Assembly (NCBI RefSeq): GCF_002215215.1
Contig: NZ_CP018632.1
Location: 4,460,501 to 4,524,500 of the forward strand
Length of the DNA stretch: 64,000 nt
Source of the DNA: Granulosicoccus antarcticus IMCC3135
GTDB lineage: Bacteria; Pseudomonadota; Gammaproteobacteria; Granulosicoccales; Granulosicoccaceae
Reading direction: 5' to 3'
Under the pieces are notes generated by a model that ran no database searches, was not told the DNA's origin, and worked only from the letters and a program-made list of their open reading frames with translations. Position 1 is the first letter of the stretch, and each line of letters begins with the position of its first letter. Made by a program: the position numbers and the translations under genes. Of this stretch, positions 3,913-9,622 are shown piece by piece.

Positions 3913-4082
3913 CATGCAGACAAAGCTTAGCTCCTTGTCCTTGAAGCCAATCAATTGATGTGAATTCAGTCCATCAAGATGTGCTGACTCGCCATACTCT
4001 ATAGGCGCCCCATCGCAGCCATTCCCAACTCGCGCCCTGCGGCGCTGATGTAGAGGCTGCTTGCCCAACTTGGCACAAACTC
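3913..4082 (-). pseudogene. Decayed LysR-type regulator remnant
   Basis: Read on the reverse strand, two short blocks of LysR sequence survive in different frames. One encodes LYISAAGRELGMA (4028-4058 region), matching LNISAAGRELNMA in the helix-turn-helix of the intact LysR at 8711-9622. The other encodes YGESAHLDGLNSHQLIGFKDKE, matching HGEPVHPDELNSHQLISFKD of the same protein's effector domain. The roughly 130 residues that should separate them are deleted, and stops interrupt the first frame. It is a non-functional relic of a gene related to the one 4.7 kb downstream. Confidence 0.75.
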
Positions 4083-4404: not shown

Positions 4405-4722
4405 ATGAGCAACAACTCCAAAAAAGCTTCAATCACATCACTACCAACAAAATCACCTGAGACTGAGCCGGCACCTGTCACCTTTGCCGATGGCGACCTG
4501 GGAATGATTCAGTCGATTCTGTTTCGCACAGCATCACTTGAGATCGAACAAAGAATTACAGCGCTTGAGGCAGCTAATCAAGCTCAGTTCAAAGCGCTTG
4601 AACAAAGACTGACTGAAAAATTGCAGCACTTGACACAATTGGATTCTGAAAAAGTAAATCAGGAGAATCTGTCAAAACTATTGGCTGGTTTGTCTCGCGA
4701 CCTGGGCCCGTCCAACTCTTAG
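4405..4722 (+). CDS. Small coiled-coil protein, first gene of the GTPase/kinase cluster
   Basis: 105 residues, cytoplasmic, unrecognised. The N-terminal ~35 residues are Ser/Thr/Pro/Lys-rich and probably disordered. Residues ~38-90 look like an amphipathic coiled coil (ASLEIEQRITALEAANQAQ, then FKALEQRLTEKLQHLTQLD). I chose the ATG at 4405 because AGGA lies 8 bases upstream; an in-frame codon at 4333 would add residues with no plausible signal. The next gene starts 22 bp after its stop, so they are probably co-transcribed. A scaffold or adaptor role is inference from shape and context only. Confidence 0.75.
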   Translation: MSNNSKKASITSLPTKSPETEPAPVTFADGDLGMIQSILFRTASLEIEQRITALEAANQAQFKALEQRLTEKLQHLTQLDSEKVNQENLSKLLAGLSRDLGPSNS

Positions 4723-4744
4723 ATCGCAAGAGCACAAAACCACC

Positions 4745-5932
4745 ATGAGCTCTGCACAACGCCAACACATCGATGAGGCAACAGATACCGACGCGCAACT
4801 AGCGCATTTGCGTGAACTGTTGCTGCTGCAAGTCAATGAACAGCAAGCGGCACAACAGAAATTGCTGGAGGACATCACGACACGACAAGATGATCTCAGC
4901 AGGCGCACCGCTGATGTCAGTGAGGTGTTGCGTGAGGCAATTGATCACTTGCATGAACGTGGTGTCTCACTTGCCGAGGCGCTTGAACCGGACATTCTGA
5001 AAGGCGTCAAACGTACGTTTGAAACCGAGCCTGATGTAATGGCCGGAGCACTGTATCCGGTTCTGGGTCCAGCGGTTCGAAAACTGGTGGCAAGCTTGTT
5101 CGAACCATCCAACATAACCAAAGGCGCGCCATATCAGATAGAACAACTGCTGCTCATACATACTGAAAGCAGCATTGTACTCTCGCAGGTTGTGGTCGAA
5201 GACCGTACAACCCAGGATGCCGATATCGTCTCGGGAATGCTCGACGCCATACGTCATTTCGTCCAGGAGGCTTTTGCCGTCGATAATTTTGATGGCATGA
5301 ACACGCTCAGCATTGGCGATATTACCGTCTGGGTTGAATGGGGTCCCAAAGCTGTCCTGGCCGTCGTCATCAGAGGCATGGCGACAGAGTTGGACAGACA
5401 ACCCTTTGTAGAGATTCTTGAGCGCATACACGCCCAGTACAGCGCACCGCTAGATCAGTTCAACGGTGAATTAGCCACTTTTGAGCCCATCAAAGCGGAT
5501 TTGGAATCGTGTTTATCAGCGCAAATTCAAGAGAAAAAAAAGACATCATTATGGGGCCATCGTCGGCTCAACAGTATCATTCTGGGCGCAGCTGTACTGT
5601 TCACATCCATCGCGTTCGTAACCAACGAACGACATTCCCGGTGGGACTCTATCCTGAATGAGCTCTCGAGCACGCCCGGTCTTGTCGTGTTGAACACTGA
5701 GCGTGGCTGGCGAACATCTCGAATTCAAATGCTCAAGGATCCGCAGGCACGCTCACCAAAGCTGGTGCTGTTACTGGCTGGCATTGACCCCTCTGACTTG
5801 ACACTGACAACTCATGCCTTTCTGTCAGCTGAAAATGAAATTGTGCGGCGACGTACAAACCAGGTTCGGGCGTCTACAGACGCCAGTAACGAGCCAGGCT
5901 TGCTAACGTCCGTTCAATCAAATGAAGAGTAA
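4745..5932 (+). CDS. Membrane protein related to the N-terminal part of OmpA-type proteins in GTPase clusters, lacking an OmpA domain
   Basis: 395 residues. Residues 15-70 are a predicted coiled coil; ~80-260 form a conserved cytoplasmic domain with LYPVLGPAVRKLV (103-115), LLLIHTESSIVLSQVV (135-150), QDADIVSGMLDAIRHFV (157-173) and ITVWVEWGPKAVLAVVIRG (193-211). A single membrane helix spans ~276-293 and ~100 residues follow, presumably periplasmic. The same blocks occur, as I recall, in longer proteins ending in an OmpA peptidoglycan-binding domain beside small GTPases; here the protein stops before that domain. It ends 6 bp before the GTPase start, so tight coupling is likely. Possible role: membrane receptor or partner for the GTPase (inference). 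Confidence 0.8.
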   Translation: MSSAQRQHIDEATDTDAQLAHLRELLLLQVNEQQAAQQKLLEDITTRQDDLSRRTADVSEVLREAIDHLHERGVSLAEALEPDILKGVKRTFETEPDVMAGALYPVLGPAVRKLVASLFEPSNITKGAPYQIEQLLLIHTESSIVLSQVVVEDRTTQDADIVSGMLDAIRHFVQEAFAVDNFDGMNTLSIGDITVWVEWGPKAVLAVVIRGMATELDRQPFVEILERIHAQYSAPLDQFNGELATFEPIKADLESCLSAQIQEKKKTSLWGHRRLNSIILGAAVLFTSIAFVTNERHSRWDSILNELSSTPGLVVLNTERGWRTSRIQMLKDPQARSPKLVLLLAGIDPSDLTLTTHAFLSAENEIVRRRTNQVRASTDASNEPGLLTSVQSNEE

Positions 5933-5938
5933 ACGAAC

Positions 5939-6445
5939 GTGATTACAAAAAAAATATGCTTGCTTGGAACAGTGAGAGTTGGCAAAACGAGCCTGGTAAG
6001 ACGATTCGTTTCCAGTACATTTTCTGAACGCTACCTGACAACGATCGGTGTAAAGATCGACAAGAAAATAGTCTCACTGGAGCAGGAAGATGTTCAGCTT
6101 GTGGTATGGGATATCCAGGGTGAAGATAAATACCGGAGAATCCTGATTTCGTATCTTAAAGGCTTATCAGGATATATGCTGGTGATCGACAGCTCGCGCT
6201 CTGAAACCGTTGAAACAGCTATTGAAGTGCACGAACGCGTGAAACAAGCCTACCCCGGGCTGCCATACGTTGTGATACTGAGTAAATGCGACTTGGATGA
6301 AGATCCGCTGCTCCAGGATGCCATTACAGTGCTTTGCGAACAGGCCTGCACCACAGTGAGCACCAGCGCATTAACAGGCGATGGTGTTGACGAAGCTTTT
6401 CACGCATTGACCAGCCGGATGATCACACTCAGACCGACGGGTTAG
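5939..6445 (+). CDS. Rab/Ras-like small GTPase with altered G3 and G4 motifs
   Basis: 168-residue single-domain GTP-binding protein, cytoplasmic. P-loop GTVRVGKTS (residues 10-18), switch I RYLTTIG (31-37), G3 WDIQGED (57-63), G4 SKCD (115-118), G5 STSALTG (141-147). The order and length match the Rab/Rag-like GTPases found in bacteria. Two departures are visible: the residue after the G3 glycine is Glu62 where Ras/Rab have the catalytic Gln, and the G4 Asn is Ser115. Slow or partner-dependent hydrolysis is therefore likely (inference). The start is GTG at 5939, 6 bp after the upstream stop; the kinase gene begins 14 bp downstream. Confidence 0.92.
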   Translation: MITKKICLLGTVRVGKTSLVRRFVSSTFSERYLTTIGVKIDKKIVSLEQEDVQLVVWDIQGEDKYRRILISYLKGLSGYMLVIDSSRSETVETAIEVHERVKQAYPGLPYVVILSKCDLDEDPLLQDAITVLCEQACTTVSTSALTGDGVDEAFHALTSRMITLRPTG

Positions 6446-6458
6446 GGGAAAAGAGCTA

Positions 6459-7631
6459 ATGGTCGCGTATTCACACAATAGAGAGGGTTTGCCAGAGTCC
6501 GGACGATCTGGCATAAACCACTGTGAGATAGGGGCCAGAGAGGTCACTGAAAACTCTTGCTTGAACGTATACCAGATGGTTGAAGGGTTTTCACAAGCAG
6601 CGCTGCTGGTTGATCACAAGCATCTCGTGCTGACGTGCAATCCGGCGCTCAACAAGCTGCTGCCTGAACTCACCCGCAACGCTGAATTCAAGCTACAGGC
6701 ACTGCTTCATGAATCACCTCTGGCGTTGCCATTACCCTATACTGCCAATGACGATATCGATGCTGTTTTTGCCAATGGCAAAACGATAGAGCGGCAGGTC
6801 AGTTTTAAGCATTCCTCGGGCAGCACCTGTCAGCAACGCATTCAGTATTTCGCCTCACGGGTAGCACAGGAAAAGGTACTGGGGGTGCTGATTGTCTTCA
6901 CGGACATAACCCATGCTCAGGAGCAGGAACGCAGGGTTTATGAGGCGAATGAGGAGCTCACTCAACTTCAGCATCATTTATCGCACGATCTATCCGCACC
7001 GATCACCTCCATCGGTGGACTTCTGCAAATGATTACCGGCGATTTCGAGGATGGAGAGTTCGACGAAATACCCGAATTACTGCAAGAATCCGAGTCTCAG
7101 ATCGTGCGACTCAAGGGACTTATCAGTGATCTGATGTCATTGGCACAATCAGGCGTGAATGAACCCACGATCACAACCTTTGATGTCAGAGAGCTGGTGC
7201 AGGACATCTCCGACTTGTTGAGTGGCCATAGCAGGACGCTGGAACTGAGCATAACAGTCGACTGCTCAGTTGATACGTTAACCTCTGATCGTGTTCGCGT
7301 TAAACAGATATTGACCAACCTGATCTCTAATGCACGAAAATTTCAGAATCCGGATGAGGTGGCTCCAGAGATCGTGGTACTGCTAAAGGAAAATGAGCAG
7401 GGTACTGAACTGATTGTGCAGGACAATGGTATTGGCATCTGCGAGAGCCGCAAGGATAGCCTGTTCGATCTTTTTGTCCGAGGTGATGCAGCGGGGCAAC
7501 CCGGACATGGCCTGGGGCTGTACATCGTACGAAAGCATGTCGCAAAACTAGGTGGTAGCGTCGAAATATCACGATGCAGCAAGCCTACGGAGTTCACGAT
7601 TTGTCTGCCTCATACCACCTCCTCTTTATAG
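6459..7631 (+). CDS. Soluble PAS-domain sensor histidine kinase of the GTPase cluster
   Basis: 390 residues without a membrane segment. A PAS-like domain spans ~38-155, ending in VLIVFTDITHAQEQE. HisKA holds the phosphoacceptor His176 in SHDLSAP. The HATPase_c domain has the N-box NLISNARKF, G1 DNGIGI and G2 GHGLGLYIV. No receiver domain or response regulator gene lies nearby, so output is unknown. GGGGAAAAGAG precedes the ATG. It closes the cluster 4405-7631; co-transcription with the GTPase suggests that the kinase senses or controls the GTPase/membrane protein state (inference). Confidence 0.92.
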   Translation: MVAYSHNREGLPESGRSGINHCEIGAREVTENSCLNVYQMVEGFSQAALLVDHKHLVLTCNPALNKLLPELTRNAEFKLQALLHESPLALPLPYTANDDIDAVFANGKTIERQVSFKHSSGSTCQQRIQYFASRVAQEKVLGVLIVFTDITHAQEQERRVYEANEELTQLQHHLSHDLSAPITSIGGLLQMITGDFEDGEFDEIPELLQESESQIVRLKGLISDLMSLAQSGVNEPTITTFDVRELVQDISDLLSGHSRTLELSITVDCSVDTLTSDRVRVKQILTNLISNARKFQNPDEVAPEIVVLLKENEQGTELIVQDNGIGICESRKDSLFDLFVRGDAAGQPGHGLGLYIVRKHVAKLGGSVEISRCSKPTEFTICLPHTTSSL

Positions 7632-7817: not shown

Positions 7818-8642
7818 ATGAAATATTCGGTATGCTTTCTCTCGCTGATATTTTGCAGTTCATGCACAACTGCAACACTCAAGCAACCAACAACTGAGCC
7901 AGAGCCAGTCTTACCATCAGAACCAGAACCGTTACCCACGAGTCCTCTAACTGACGACAAGACGGTTACTCAGTGCGATATATCGCCCGCAATATCCTGG
8001 ATGGCAAGCCAGACTATCGATTATTCCCAGGACCCCAGCAATGAGTGGCGTGACTGTAGCGGAAACTTCTTGCGACTATCCAGCTATGTTGCCGATATGT
8101 GCGAAGTGGACTTGGTTGCTCCACCTGGCATCAAAGAATACGTACAAGGTGGCAACAACCAAAGACCGGGTGTGGCAGAAGCAAGAACCACACGGGGCAT
8201 CGCTAAATGGTATGACGAGAAGGGAATGTTTGTACCCATTTTTTACGATGGCAAGAAACTGACCGAAGCCCCCGACGCCCTATTGGCTATACGTGAAAAC
8301 CTGAAGCCTGGTGCGGTTTTGTGGTTCTCAAGCAAACAACCGCTGGCTGCGAAGAAAAAGGAAGGCCTCTACAAAGAGGCCGGTGGCTATATAGGCCATA
8401 TGGCCACGATAACCAGCGTAGAAAAAAACTCAGACGGTCTTGTTACCGGATGGAAAATGTACCACGGTCAGAACGAACGAAAAAACAACGGCATCACAGA
8501 GCACTGGTGGGACTGGCCAAGCGCTTACACCAGCAAAGGCCAGGCGTATCCACCCGGTGGTTACTGGAATCAAAGGATTGTTGGTTTTTCGCAAAGCCTG
8601 GTACCGGATTCGGACATAGCGGTTGTCGCTTTGGATAACTAG
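7818..8642 (+). CDS. NlpC/P60-like (papain-fold) cysteine hydrolase, probable lipoprotein
   Basis: 275 residues from the ATG at 7818; an in-frame codon at 7758 would add 20 polar residues ahead of the signal peptide. The hydrophobic start MKYSVCFLSLIFCSSC ends in a lipobox-like Cys16, followed by a Pro/Glu-rich linker (~20-45). WRDCSGNF puts a nucleophile at Cys80, and GGYIGHMATI puts His194 where NlpC/P60 or CHAP-type enzymes have the catalytic His. Such enzymes cut peptidoglycan peptides or act as amidases. It is 186 bp past the kinase gene, so membership in that cluster is possible but not shown. Substrate unknown. Confidence 0.65.
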   Translation: MKYSVCFLSLIFCSSCTTATLKQPTTEPEPVLPSEPEPLPTSPLTDDKTVTQCDISPAISWMASQTIDYSQDPSNEWRDCSGNFLRLSSYVADMCEVDLVAPPGIKEYVQGGNNQRPGVAEARTTRGIAKWYDEKGMFVPIFYDGKKLTEAPDALLAIRENLKPGAVLWFSSKQPLAAKKKEGLYKEAGGYIGHMATITSVEKNSDGLVTGWKMYHGQNERKNNGITEHWWDWPSAYTSKGQAYPPGGYWNQRIVGFSQSLVPDSDIAVVALDN

Positions 8643-8710: not shown

Positions 8711-9622
8711 CTACGACTCGTTCTCCCAAACCGGAGATGCCCCAATCCTGTCCAGCAGAAAATCAATAAACACCCGCACCTTGGCCGTCAGCACATTGGA
8801 CTTCGGATACACCAGCCACAGCATCGTCTGCTCATCAGCCCTGTAGTGCGGTAAGACCCGAACCAGACTACCCTCGTTGAGTTCACGATGAACACTCCAC
8901 AGCGAATTGATCGAGATGCCTGCTCCGGCAACTGTCGCCAGCTTATGGCTCAAACCATCATCAATGGTCAGACGACTGCCGGCCTGCTTCGGATTGAAAT
9001 CTGCCACCGCGCCATTCGCATCCACCAGCAAACGCGACGCGTTGTCCTTGAAGCTTATCAGCTGATGCGAGTTCAGCTCATCCGGGTGCACAGGCTCGCC
9101 ATGCTCTTCCAGGTAGCCTGGTGAGGCGCACAGAATGCGCGTATCGTTCGCAAGCTTGCGCCCCTTGAGGCTCGAATCCGCCGGTGTCGAGCTTCGTAGC
9201 GCCAGATCAAAACTGCCTTCGATCAACGGCATTTGCGTATCGGTTAACCGCAGATCCAGTCGAATGGCAGGCTGCAGACGCAGGAACTCAGGCAGCAGCG
9301 GCGCTATATAGAGCTGTGCGAACGTGCTGGAGGCGGCAAAACGAAGTGTCCCTGATGGCATTGCAGTGCCACGCCCAAGGGCGTTGTAGGCGGCCTCCTC
9401 TTGCGCCAGCATTTCCCGGGCATAGGGCAGGAACTCGGCGCCTTCCATTGACAGGCTCACACTGCGTGTCGAGCGATGCAGCAGATCGGCACCCAGGGAT
9501 TTTTCCAGCTTTGCCAGCCGTGAGCTGGCCACCGCCGGCGCCATATTCAGCTCGCGCCCGGCGGCACTGATGTTCAGCTTGTCAGCAGCCAGTACGAATA
9601 GGCGGATGCTTTGCGTATCCAT
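8711..9622 (-). CDS. LysR-family transcriptional regulator
   Basis: 303 residues. The N-terminal winged helix-turn-helix (residues 1-60; LNISAAGRELNMAPAVASSR, then LAKLEKSLGADLLHRSTRSV) and the periplasmic-binding-like effector domain (~90-290) are standard. It diverges from the flavin oxidoreductase gene at 9736, with 113 bp between them containing a TCAAAAT-type box, so it most likely controls the 9736-12601 operon. The decayed fragment at 3913-4082 is a close relative. Effector unknown. Confidence 0.92.
   Translation of the reverse strand: MDTQSIRLFVLAADKLNISAAGRELNMAPAVASSRLAKLEKSLGADLLHRSTRSVSLSMEGAEFLPYAREMLAQEEAAYNALGRGTAMPSGTLRFAASSTFAQLYIAPLLPEFLRLQPAIRLDLRLTDTQMPLIEGSFDLALRSSTPADSSLKGRKLANDTRILCASPGYLEEHGEPVHPDELNSHQLISFKDNASRLLVDANGAVADFNPKQAGSRLTIDDGLSHKLATVAGAGISINSLWSVHRELNEGSLVRVLPHYRADEQTMLWLVYPKSNVLTAKVRVFIDFLLDRIGASPVWENES

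Follow-up and report, generated by a model that had tools for sequence, protein, structure and literature searches.

A divergent Group 1 Rup locus in Granulosicoccus antarcticus with a predicted longin domain encoded beside a Rab-like GTPase

Introduction

What does a Rab-like small GTPase do beside a histidine kinase in a bacterial gene cluster, and which protein acts on its switch? The question is raised by four closely packed genes at positions 4405-7631 of a 64,000-nt stretch (the window), which is part of one 7.78-Mb contig of Granulosicoccus antarcticus IMCC3135 (NZ_CP018632.1). They code for a coiled-coil protein (CC), a single-span membrane protein (MEM), the GTPase and a soluble PAS histidine kinase. 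A preliminary description of this DNA proposed that they form a module in which one membrane partner is acted on by both kinase and GTPase, and recognized no receiver, GTPase-activating protein (GAP) or guanine nucleotide exchange factor (GEF) among them.

Gene sets of this composition have been described. According to the portion of the published account drawn on here, Group 1 Rup neighbourhoods combine a coiled-coil protein, a membrane protein, a GTPase and an output enzyme (Wuichet and Søgaard-Andersen 2014, PMC4316618). In the terms of that portion, their GTPases closely resemble the eukaryotic Rab/Ran/Ras/Rho group, and none had been characterised by experiment as of 2014. In the membrane protein, a conserved domain of unknown kind often precedes a membrane helix and OmpA; the same portion leaves this domain unidentified and states no predicted MglB interaction. 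Here, we report that the locus belongs, as a divergent example, to this described but uncharacterised kind, that its CC, MEM and GTPase genes belong to a set conserved across many phyla, and that the cytoplasmic domain of MEM is predicted to be a longin domain.

Results

All four open reading frames are intact and are arranged head-to-tail on the + strand, on which the features within them given below also lie. CC (P0001; 4405..4722) is a cytoplasmic protein of 105 amino acids (aa) whose ATG at 4405 aligns with the start of its family, MEM (P0002; 4745..5932) has 395 aa, the GTPase (P0003; 5939..6445) has 168 aa and a GTG start, and the kinase (P0004; 6459..7631) has 390 aa. The gene types named in the preliminary description are borne out, as Pfam identifies the GTPase and the kinase and MEM shows one hydrophobic peak; neither CC nor MEM has a significant match in Pfam or NCBIfam. 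Gaps of 22 and 6 bp had been correctly reported, and the third is 13 bp rather than 14. Judging from this spacing, the genes probably share one transcript. Promoter and terminator scans of the locus gave sites no more numerous than in shuffled sequence.

Scanning genome contigs with the MEM alignment yielded 301 relatives, the best 80 of which were kept for locus counts. These 80 span at least ten phyla. Relatives of MEM occur in Pseudomonadota, Acidobacteriota, Thermodesulfobacteriota, Gemmatimonadota, Cyanobacteriota and Actinomycetota, and further in Rhodothermota, Bacteroidota, Planctomycetales, Latescibacterota and Delongbacteria. A GTPase gene lies directly downstream of MEM in 71 of the 80 loci, at gaps of -103 to +177 bp; the other nine comprise two that end too soon at a contig edge, one with an alternative start, one with a broken MEM gene and five in which no GTPase was found. 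By hidden Markov model (HMM) profile, the GTPase is nearby in 73 of the 80 loci, and CC stands upstream of MEM in likewise 73. Because relatives of CC, MEM and GTPase recur in the same order across many phyla, the arrangement is not a chance one. The four-gene layout is thus confirmed as a co-conserved signalling module, and the co-occurrence by which the preliminary description had proposed to judge it is found for CC, MEM and GTPase.

A search of the host class, in which three candidates were scored per genome, gave 29 strong GTPase places (at least 180 bits) in 27 of 369 genomes. MEM adjoins 27 of the 29 (24 paired by eye, three as MEM fragments at contig ends), and no MEM was present in the stretch read at the remaining two. 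At another seven places, with weaker Ras-like matches (96-117 bits), the class MEM search gave no adjacent hit, their regions themselves being unread. The class-wide MEM tally (187/369 genomes) was set aside because matches to OmpA only inflate it. Within the genus, MEM is found in 17 of 27 genomes, and the lists of MEM and GTPase differ by one contig-edge copy each. Among 72,556 plasmid records, the GTPase occurs in five, four of which also carry MEM, and in none was MEM found without the GTPase. At a Mesorhizobium plasmid locus, a 1021-aa OmpA-family protein with repeated extracytoplasmic units is encoded, and the fourth gene codes for a cyclase that has at its start the adaptor described below.

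MEM has its hydrophobic peak at residues about 275-293 (5567..5623), within a helix modelled over residues 249-309. One family member, P0002 itself, was modelled with AlphaFold (AF2) on an 80-row alignment, giving a mean predicted local distance difference test score (pLDDT) of 86.1 and a predicted template modelling score (pTM) of 0.50. Residues 131-261 (5135..5527), placed on the cytoplasmic side, were modelled as b-b-a-b-b-b-a-a, and a helix at residues 96-118 precedes the first strand. With Foldseek, eight solved chains matched at E ≤0.001, the best being the Rab7 GEF Mon1-Ccz1 (9.6e-5) and the remainder belonging to adaptor, GATOR1-Gtr-Lam and coatomer complexes; MglB chains follow at E 4.9e-3 and weaker. 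VIA-align ranked the longin domain of Sec22b first (Z 15.9; 126/127 residues, 2.1 Å), with the C-terminal helix covered. Ykt6, VAMP7, the Fuzzy-Inturned complex, which binds Rab23, TRAPP and chains of the signal recognition particle (SRP) receptor come next, and the 50 matches listed (Z 10.4 to 15.9) include longin, AP-sigma, TRAPP and SRP-receptor chains and no MglB.

Longin and roadblock domains are told apart by the extra helix, which in longin sits C-terminally according to the portion of the source used (PMC10933270). The predicted model has a five-stranded sheet in the order given above, with the third helix C-terminal. We therefore consider it very likely that the cytoplasmic domain of MEM has a longin fold, a prediction of fold and not a placement in the longin sequence family, since a Pfam match is lacking. 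Roadblock had been our first guess from the alignment, and the fold searches favoured longin. This assignment is new for the Rup membrane protein; no report of longin in Rup systems was found in open-licence PubMed Central titles and abstract openings. If the fold is right, the missing platform for regulating or reading the GTPase is probably MEM itself. The earlier statement that no GAP or GEF is recognizable thus holds by sequence and not by predicted structure, as MEM is modelled with the fold of several Rab regulators.

On the other side of the membrane, a Pfam OmpA domain is present in 51 of 82 MEM family members and absent from the window copy, which also lacks the second half of a ~135-aa periplasmic unit; residues 313-395 (5681..5929) correspond to its first half. 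The OmpA-ended neighbourhoods mentioned in the preliminary description turn out to be relatives of this locus, and such neighbourhoods are the published set, as far as the portion used of that account goes (PMC4316618).

The GTPase matches Pfam Ras (7.2e-27), and the solved structure nearest to its family profile is Rab23 (5.9e-39). Its motifs are G1 GTVRVGKTSL, G3 WDIQGED, without the catalytic Gln, and G4 SKCD, which replaces NKxD. The G3 Gln is absent from all 77 aligned GTPases, Glu being the commonest residue (59) and also that of the window copy. The window GTPase, whose nearest relative is about 50% identical, forms a clade on a long branch with three copies from other genomes of the genus (support 100/99), and these four are the only ones among the 77 with SKxD for NKxD. 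SKxD also occurs in L028:5712-6302, a copy that is not part of that alignment.

Members of the CC family have ~200 aa. The window CC retains the N-terminal motif (LGxIQxILF) and the C-terminal motif and is missing some 90 residues from its central coiled coil. When the CC and MEM families are compared by HHalign, the N-terminal motif of CC is similar to the N-terminal end of MEM (E 2e-4, probability 47%, 37 columns), where a motif of LxxLRxLLxG type lies at 4799..4831. The likeness hints at a common docking site; where coiled coils are involved, it is suggestive only.

Several loci depart from the common layout. Three from Acidimicrobiales (L065, L089, L098) have a short MEM of 290-303 aa and a coiled coil that follows the GTPase, and an upstream gene resembles, by eye, a NarL/LuxR response regulator. 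Six others (L061, L093, L094, L115, L124, L125) combine CC with a long MEM (640-959 aa) and have no GTPase found nearby; they are possibly GTPase-free or split versions. Among relatives of the window subclade, an OmpA barrel gene or sugar-modifying genes stand after the GTPase in three. An OmpA-type beta-barrel gene adjoins L019 and L021, and sugar transferase or epimerase genes adjoin L028 and L020, neighbours that hint at envelope or polysaccharide control. Two of these loci also carry a divergent, adaptor-free receiver-kinase gene (L019 10951-12108, + strand; L021 7430-8677, - strand), which lies upstream of MEM in L019 and of the MEM remnant in L021 and encodes a kinase distinct from that of the window (24% in tblastn).

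The fourth gene varies. A Pfam scan of 44 chosen output-region proteins, which included the window kinase and left out most copies from Granulosicoccaceae, found HisKA in 14, HATPase in 14, receiver in nine, HD in eight, cyclase in four, Hpt in three, GGDEF, EAL and PP2C in two each and a sigma-54 activator in one. This shows that the fourth gene is exchangeable, being a kinase, cyclase, HD-GYP, GGDEF/EAL or PP2C gene. Many output proteins begin with a conserved PAS-like adaptor, which in several Granulosicoccaceae loci is a separate gene of ~132 aa ahead of the kinase. The adaptor is near MEM in 57 of the 80 loci, a joint count for two profiles that stem partly from the same loci and of which the second drifted to the first on iteration. 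In the genus, it was found in 16 of 17 GTPase-positive genomes (in two of them weakly, at 1.4e-6 and 1.2e-4) and in none of ten GTPase-negative ones; the sole GTPase-positive genome without it is that of the window. VIA points to PAS for the adaptor model (Z 8.8), whose order of elements is similar to that of the MEM domain, and the adaptor profile reached MglB in the PDB at E 0.31. The adaptor is thus predicted to be PAS-like; for the longin result, it is a control in part only. A common origin of MEM and adaptor was considered and dropped, as HHalign found nothing (probability 0.1%). At seven sister loci, a small receiver gene follows the kinase (Pfam read for two). At L041 (12242-16798), L044 and L052, the output is a CheB-CheR-PAS-kinase of ~1520 aa with a receiver (Pfam on L041 only).

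The window kinase matches HATPase_c (3.2e-20) and HisKA (8e-08), has PAS_4/PAS_9 matches (0.0024) below the curated cut-offs and shows no transmembrane peak. Adaptor profiles do not match P0004, which rules out an adaptor hidden inside it, and none was found elsewhere in the window genome, the 16 positive genomes of the genus serving as control. A search of the genus, in which 70 of 74-88 candidates were scored in four large genomes, gave as relatives at 1e-30 a paralog in the same genome (G000; 34%) and one protein each in G024, G025 and G026, which are genomes without GTPase or MEM. In the three cases read (G000, G024, G026), a receiver gene directly follows the kinase relative. The absence of a receiver noted earlier therefore applies to the window locus and not to the seven sister loci or the own-genome paralog, and the kinase does not stand as a conserved partner, its nearest genus relatives being in module-free genomes and the kinase itself lacking the Rup adaptor. 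Given these relatives, and the receiver genes behind the three read, the window kinase was probably recruited to the output position.

Beyond the module, a decayed copy of a LysR-type gene appears to lie directly upstream, on the - strand at 3937-4064, as remnants with 71% identity over 21 aa (E 2e-4) and 75% over 16 aa (E 0.18) that resemble the intact LysR gene at 8711-9622. Further upstream, 1521-2939 codes for an ScfR-type regulator with helix-turn-helix, IrrE-like peptidase and ScfRs domains (Pfam 1.2e-61). Downstream, 7818-8642 codes for a signal-peptide or lipoprotein-like protein of 274 aa without a Pfam match. It contains DCSGN and GHMA stretches, which we take to recall NlpC/P60-type hydrolases.

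Discussion

Taken as a whole, the locus is read here, with some reserve but as the favoured interpretation, as a divergent Group 1 Rup locus with a longin-GTPase core and an exchangeable output. MEM would display its longin domain at the inner membrane, on the cytoplasmic face, where the domain would bind the Rab-like GTPase and then control or read its nucleotide state. TRAPP, Mon1-Ccz1 and MglB control the nucleotide state of a GTPase, the SRX domain of the SRP receptor reads SRbeta, and the longin fold regulates Rab switches in human cells. Given the near-obligate adjacency of the two genes and this known use of the fold, binding between GTPase and longin domain is likely, with the latter acting either as GEF or GAP or as an effector. 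In many relatives, the periplasmic part of MEM can presumably reach peptidoglycan through OmpA, and the longin-GTPase pair would therefore report envelope state; the window copy has no OmpA and a shortened periplasmic domain. CC, which shares its short motif with the MEM N-terminus, is probably part of the same complex. The switch would act on the exchangeable output enzyme, often through the PAS-like adaptor. In the window, the output place would be held by the recruited, adaptor-free PAS histidine kinase, which would most likely pass its signal to a single-domain receiver whose gene lies elsewhere. Of all the steps, the part played by the kinase is the least secure. That the kinase is the output in this genome seems slightly more probable than the contrary, and the receiver at G000:C1:2348227-2348664, beside the kinase paralog, is offered as a tentative candidate for its partner. 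The circuit first proposed, in which kinase and GTPase work on one membrane partner, is plausible.

Several findings weigh against this reading. None of the 82 MEM members has a longin or roadblock match in Pfam (E 0.01), so that the fold depends on one predicted model with a pTM of 0.50, in which longin helix 1 has a pLDDT of 68-79. The fold control is not clean, since Ragulator and dynein roadblock chains lead the Foldseek list for the adaptor (E 7.5e-4), with poor superposition. The window subclade appears remodelled, with SKxD and a shortened CC and MEM; no kinase follows the GTPase in L019, L020 or L021, and most of the MEM gene is deleted in L021. The kinase, moreover, differs from other Rup outputs and has relatives where the module is lacking, and it may therefore not belong to the module functionally. 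Insertion of an independent kinase behind a CC-MEM-GTPase unit that is remodelled or in decay, with no more than the transcript in common, would fit the state of these three subclade loci, the kinase relatives in GTPase-free genomes and in the own genome, each of those read with its own receiver gene, and the LysR remnant directly upstream. All four frames are intact, however, and the kinase occupies the usual position of the output gene behind a 13-bp gap that follows a purine-rich, ribosome-binding-like stretch; kinases also recur near the subclade, as the receiver-kinases of L019 and L021 illustrate. On balance, a mere bystander is improbable.

We hold a reversal of the order, with the kinase as an upstream sensor that phosphorylates or steers MEM, CC or the GTPase and with the GTPase as output, to be similarly unlikely. 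It would agree with the absence of a receiver from the window locus and with actinobacterial conservons, for which such an order may hold; in the portion of the account used, these combine a histidine kinase with a roadblock protein and a GTPase, and their interactions require the activity of kinase and GTPase (PMC4316618). The exchange of the fourth gene for cyclases, HD-GYP, GGDEF/EAL and PP2C proteins is nevertheless more output-like than input-like, and a receiver follows the kinase at the sister loci. Less probable still is that the MEM domain is an MglB-type roadblock or another profilin- or PAS-like fold and that the pair is MglA/MglB-like. Roadblock and longin share a core, MglB does appear in the Foldseek list, and helix 96-118 lies ahead of the first strand as in roadblock; against this, MglB is missing from the listed VIA-align matches and Sec22b aligns over nearly the whole domain, C-terminal helix included.

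The favoured reading, a longin-GTPase core with exchangeable output, would give the GTPase a concrete partner in its near-obligate neighbour, a bacterial counterpart of the Rab-longin pairing. In the portions of the sources used, that pairing belongs to Asgard archaea and eukaryotes, and its relatives in bacteria are roadblock proteins of the MglB type (PMC10933270, PMC3521125). We put forward only tentatively that the Rup longin domain is a dedicated GTPase regulator within an ancient and widespread bacterial membrane-anchored longin-Rab pair that shares ancestry with the eukaryotic Rab-longin regulators. If true, the longin-Rab partnership was not confined to Asgard archaea and eukaryotes but was present in bacteria as well. 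The data also suggest a modular design, with a single core of GTPase and membrane protein that drives bacterial output enzymes of many kinds.

Compared with known systems, the locus shares all four components with Group 1 Rup and differs in a MEM without OmpA, a short CC, the SKxD form of G4 and an adaptor-free kinase. The window GTPase lies within the Group 1 Rup size range (about 150-240 aa, Ras superfamily) and lacks the catalytic Gln, a loss that is a published hallmark of the group in the portion of the account used (PMC4316618). P0001, aligned at both ends of its family, is the coiled-coil neighbour, and MEM is the membrane neighbour with the conserved domain; OmpA is not required, as that portion has it only 'often' present (PMC4316618). 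The published N-terminal output region with an invariant Gln, which the PAS-like adaptor presumably represents, is not found in P0004. We accordingly file CC, MEM and GTPase as Group 1 Rup, while the kinase lacks the output feature.

The actinobacterial conservon (CvnA-D) likewise unites a histidine kinase, a partner of the roadblock/longin superfold and a small GTPase in one operon. To our knowledge, conservons contain no CC-MEM pair. In the portion of the account used, they have an MglA-type GTPase, a separate MglB homolog and a membrane kinase (PMC4316618), whereas the window GTPase is of Rup type and the locus has no separate roadblock gene. Eukaryotic TRAPP, Mon1-Ccz1, Fuzzy-Inturned/Rab23 and SRX-SRbeta also set a longin fold beside a Rab-type GTPase. 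In contrast to these, the predicted longin domain of the window has no sequence-level match, forms one protein with a transmembrane helix and an envelope domain, and is tied to bacterial signalling enzymes. MglA/MglB, finally, similarly consists of a small GTPase and its own specific partner from the roadblock/longin superfold, but here the GTPase is a Rup protein and its putative partner a membrane protein that scores better as longin than as roadblock.

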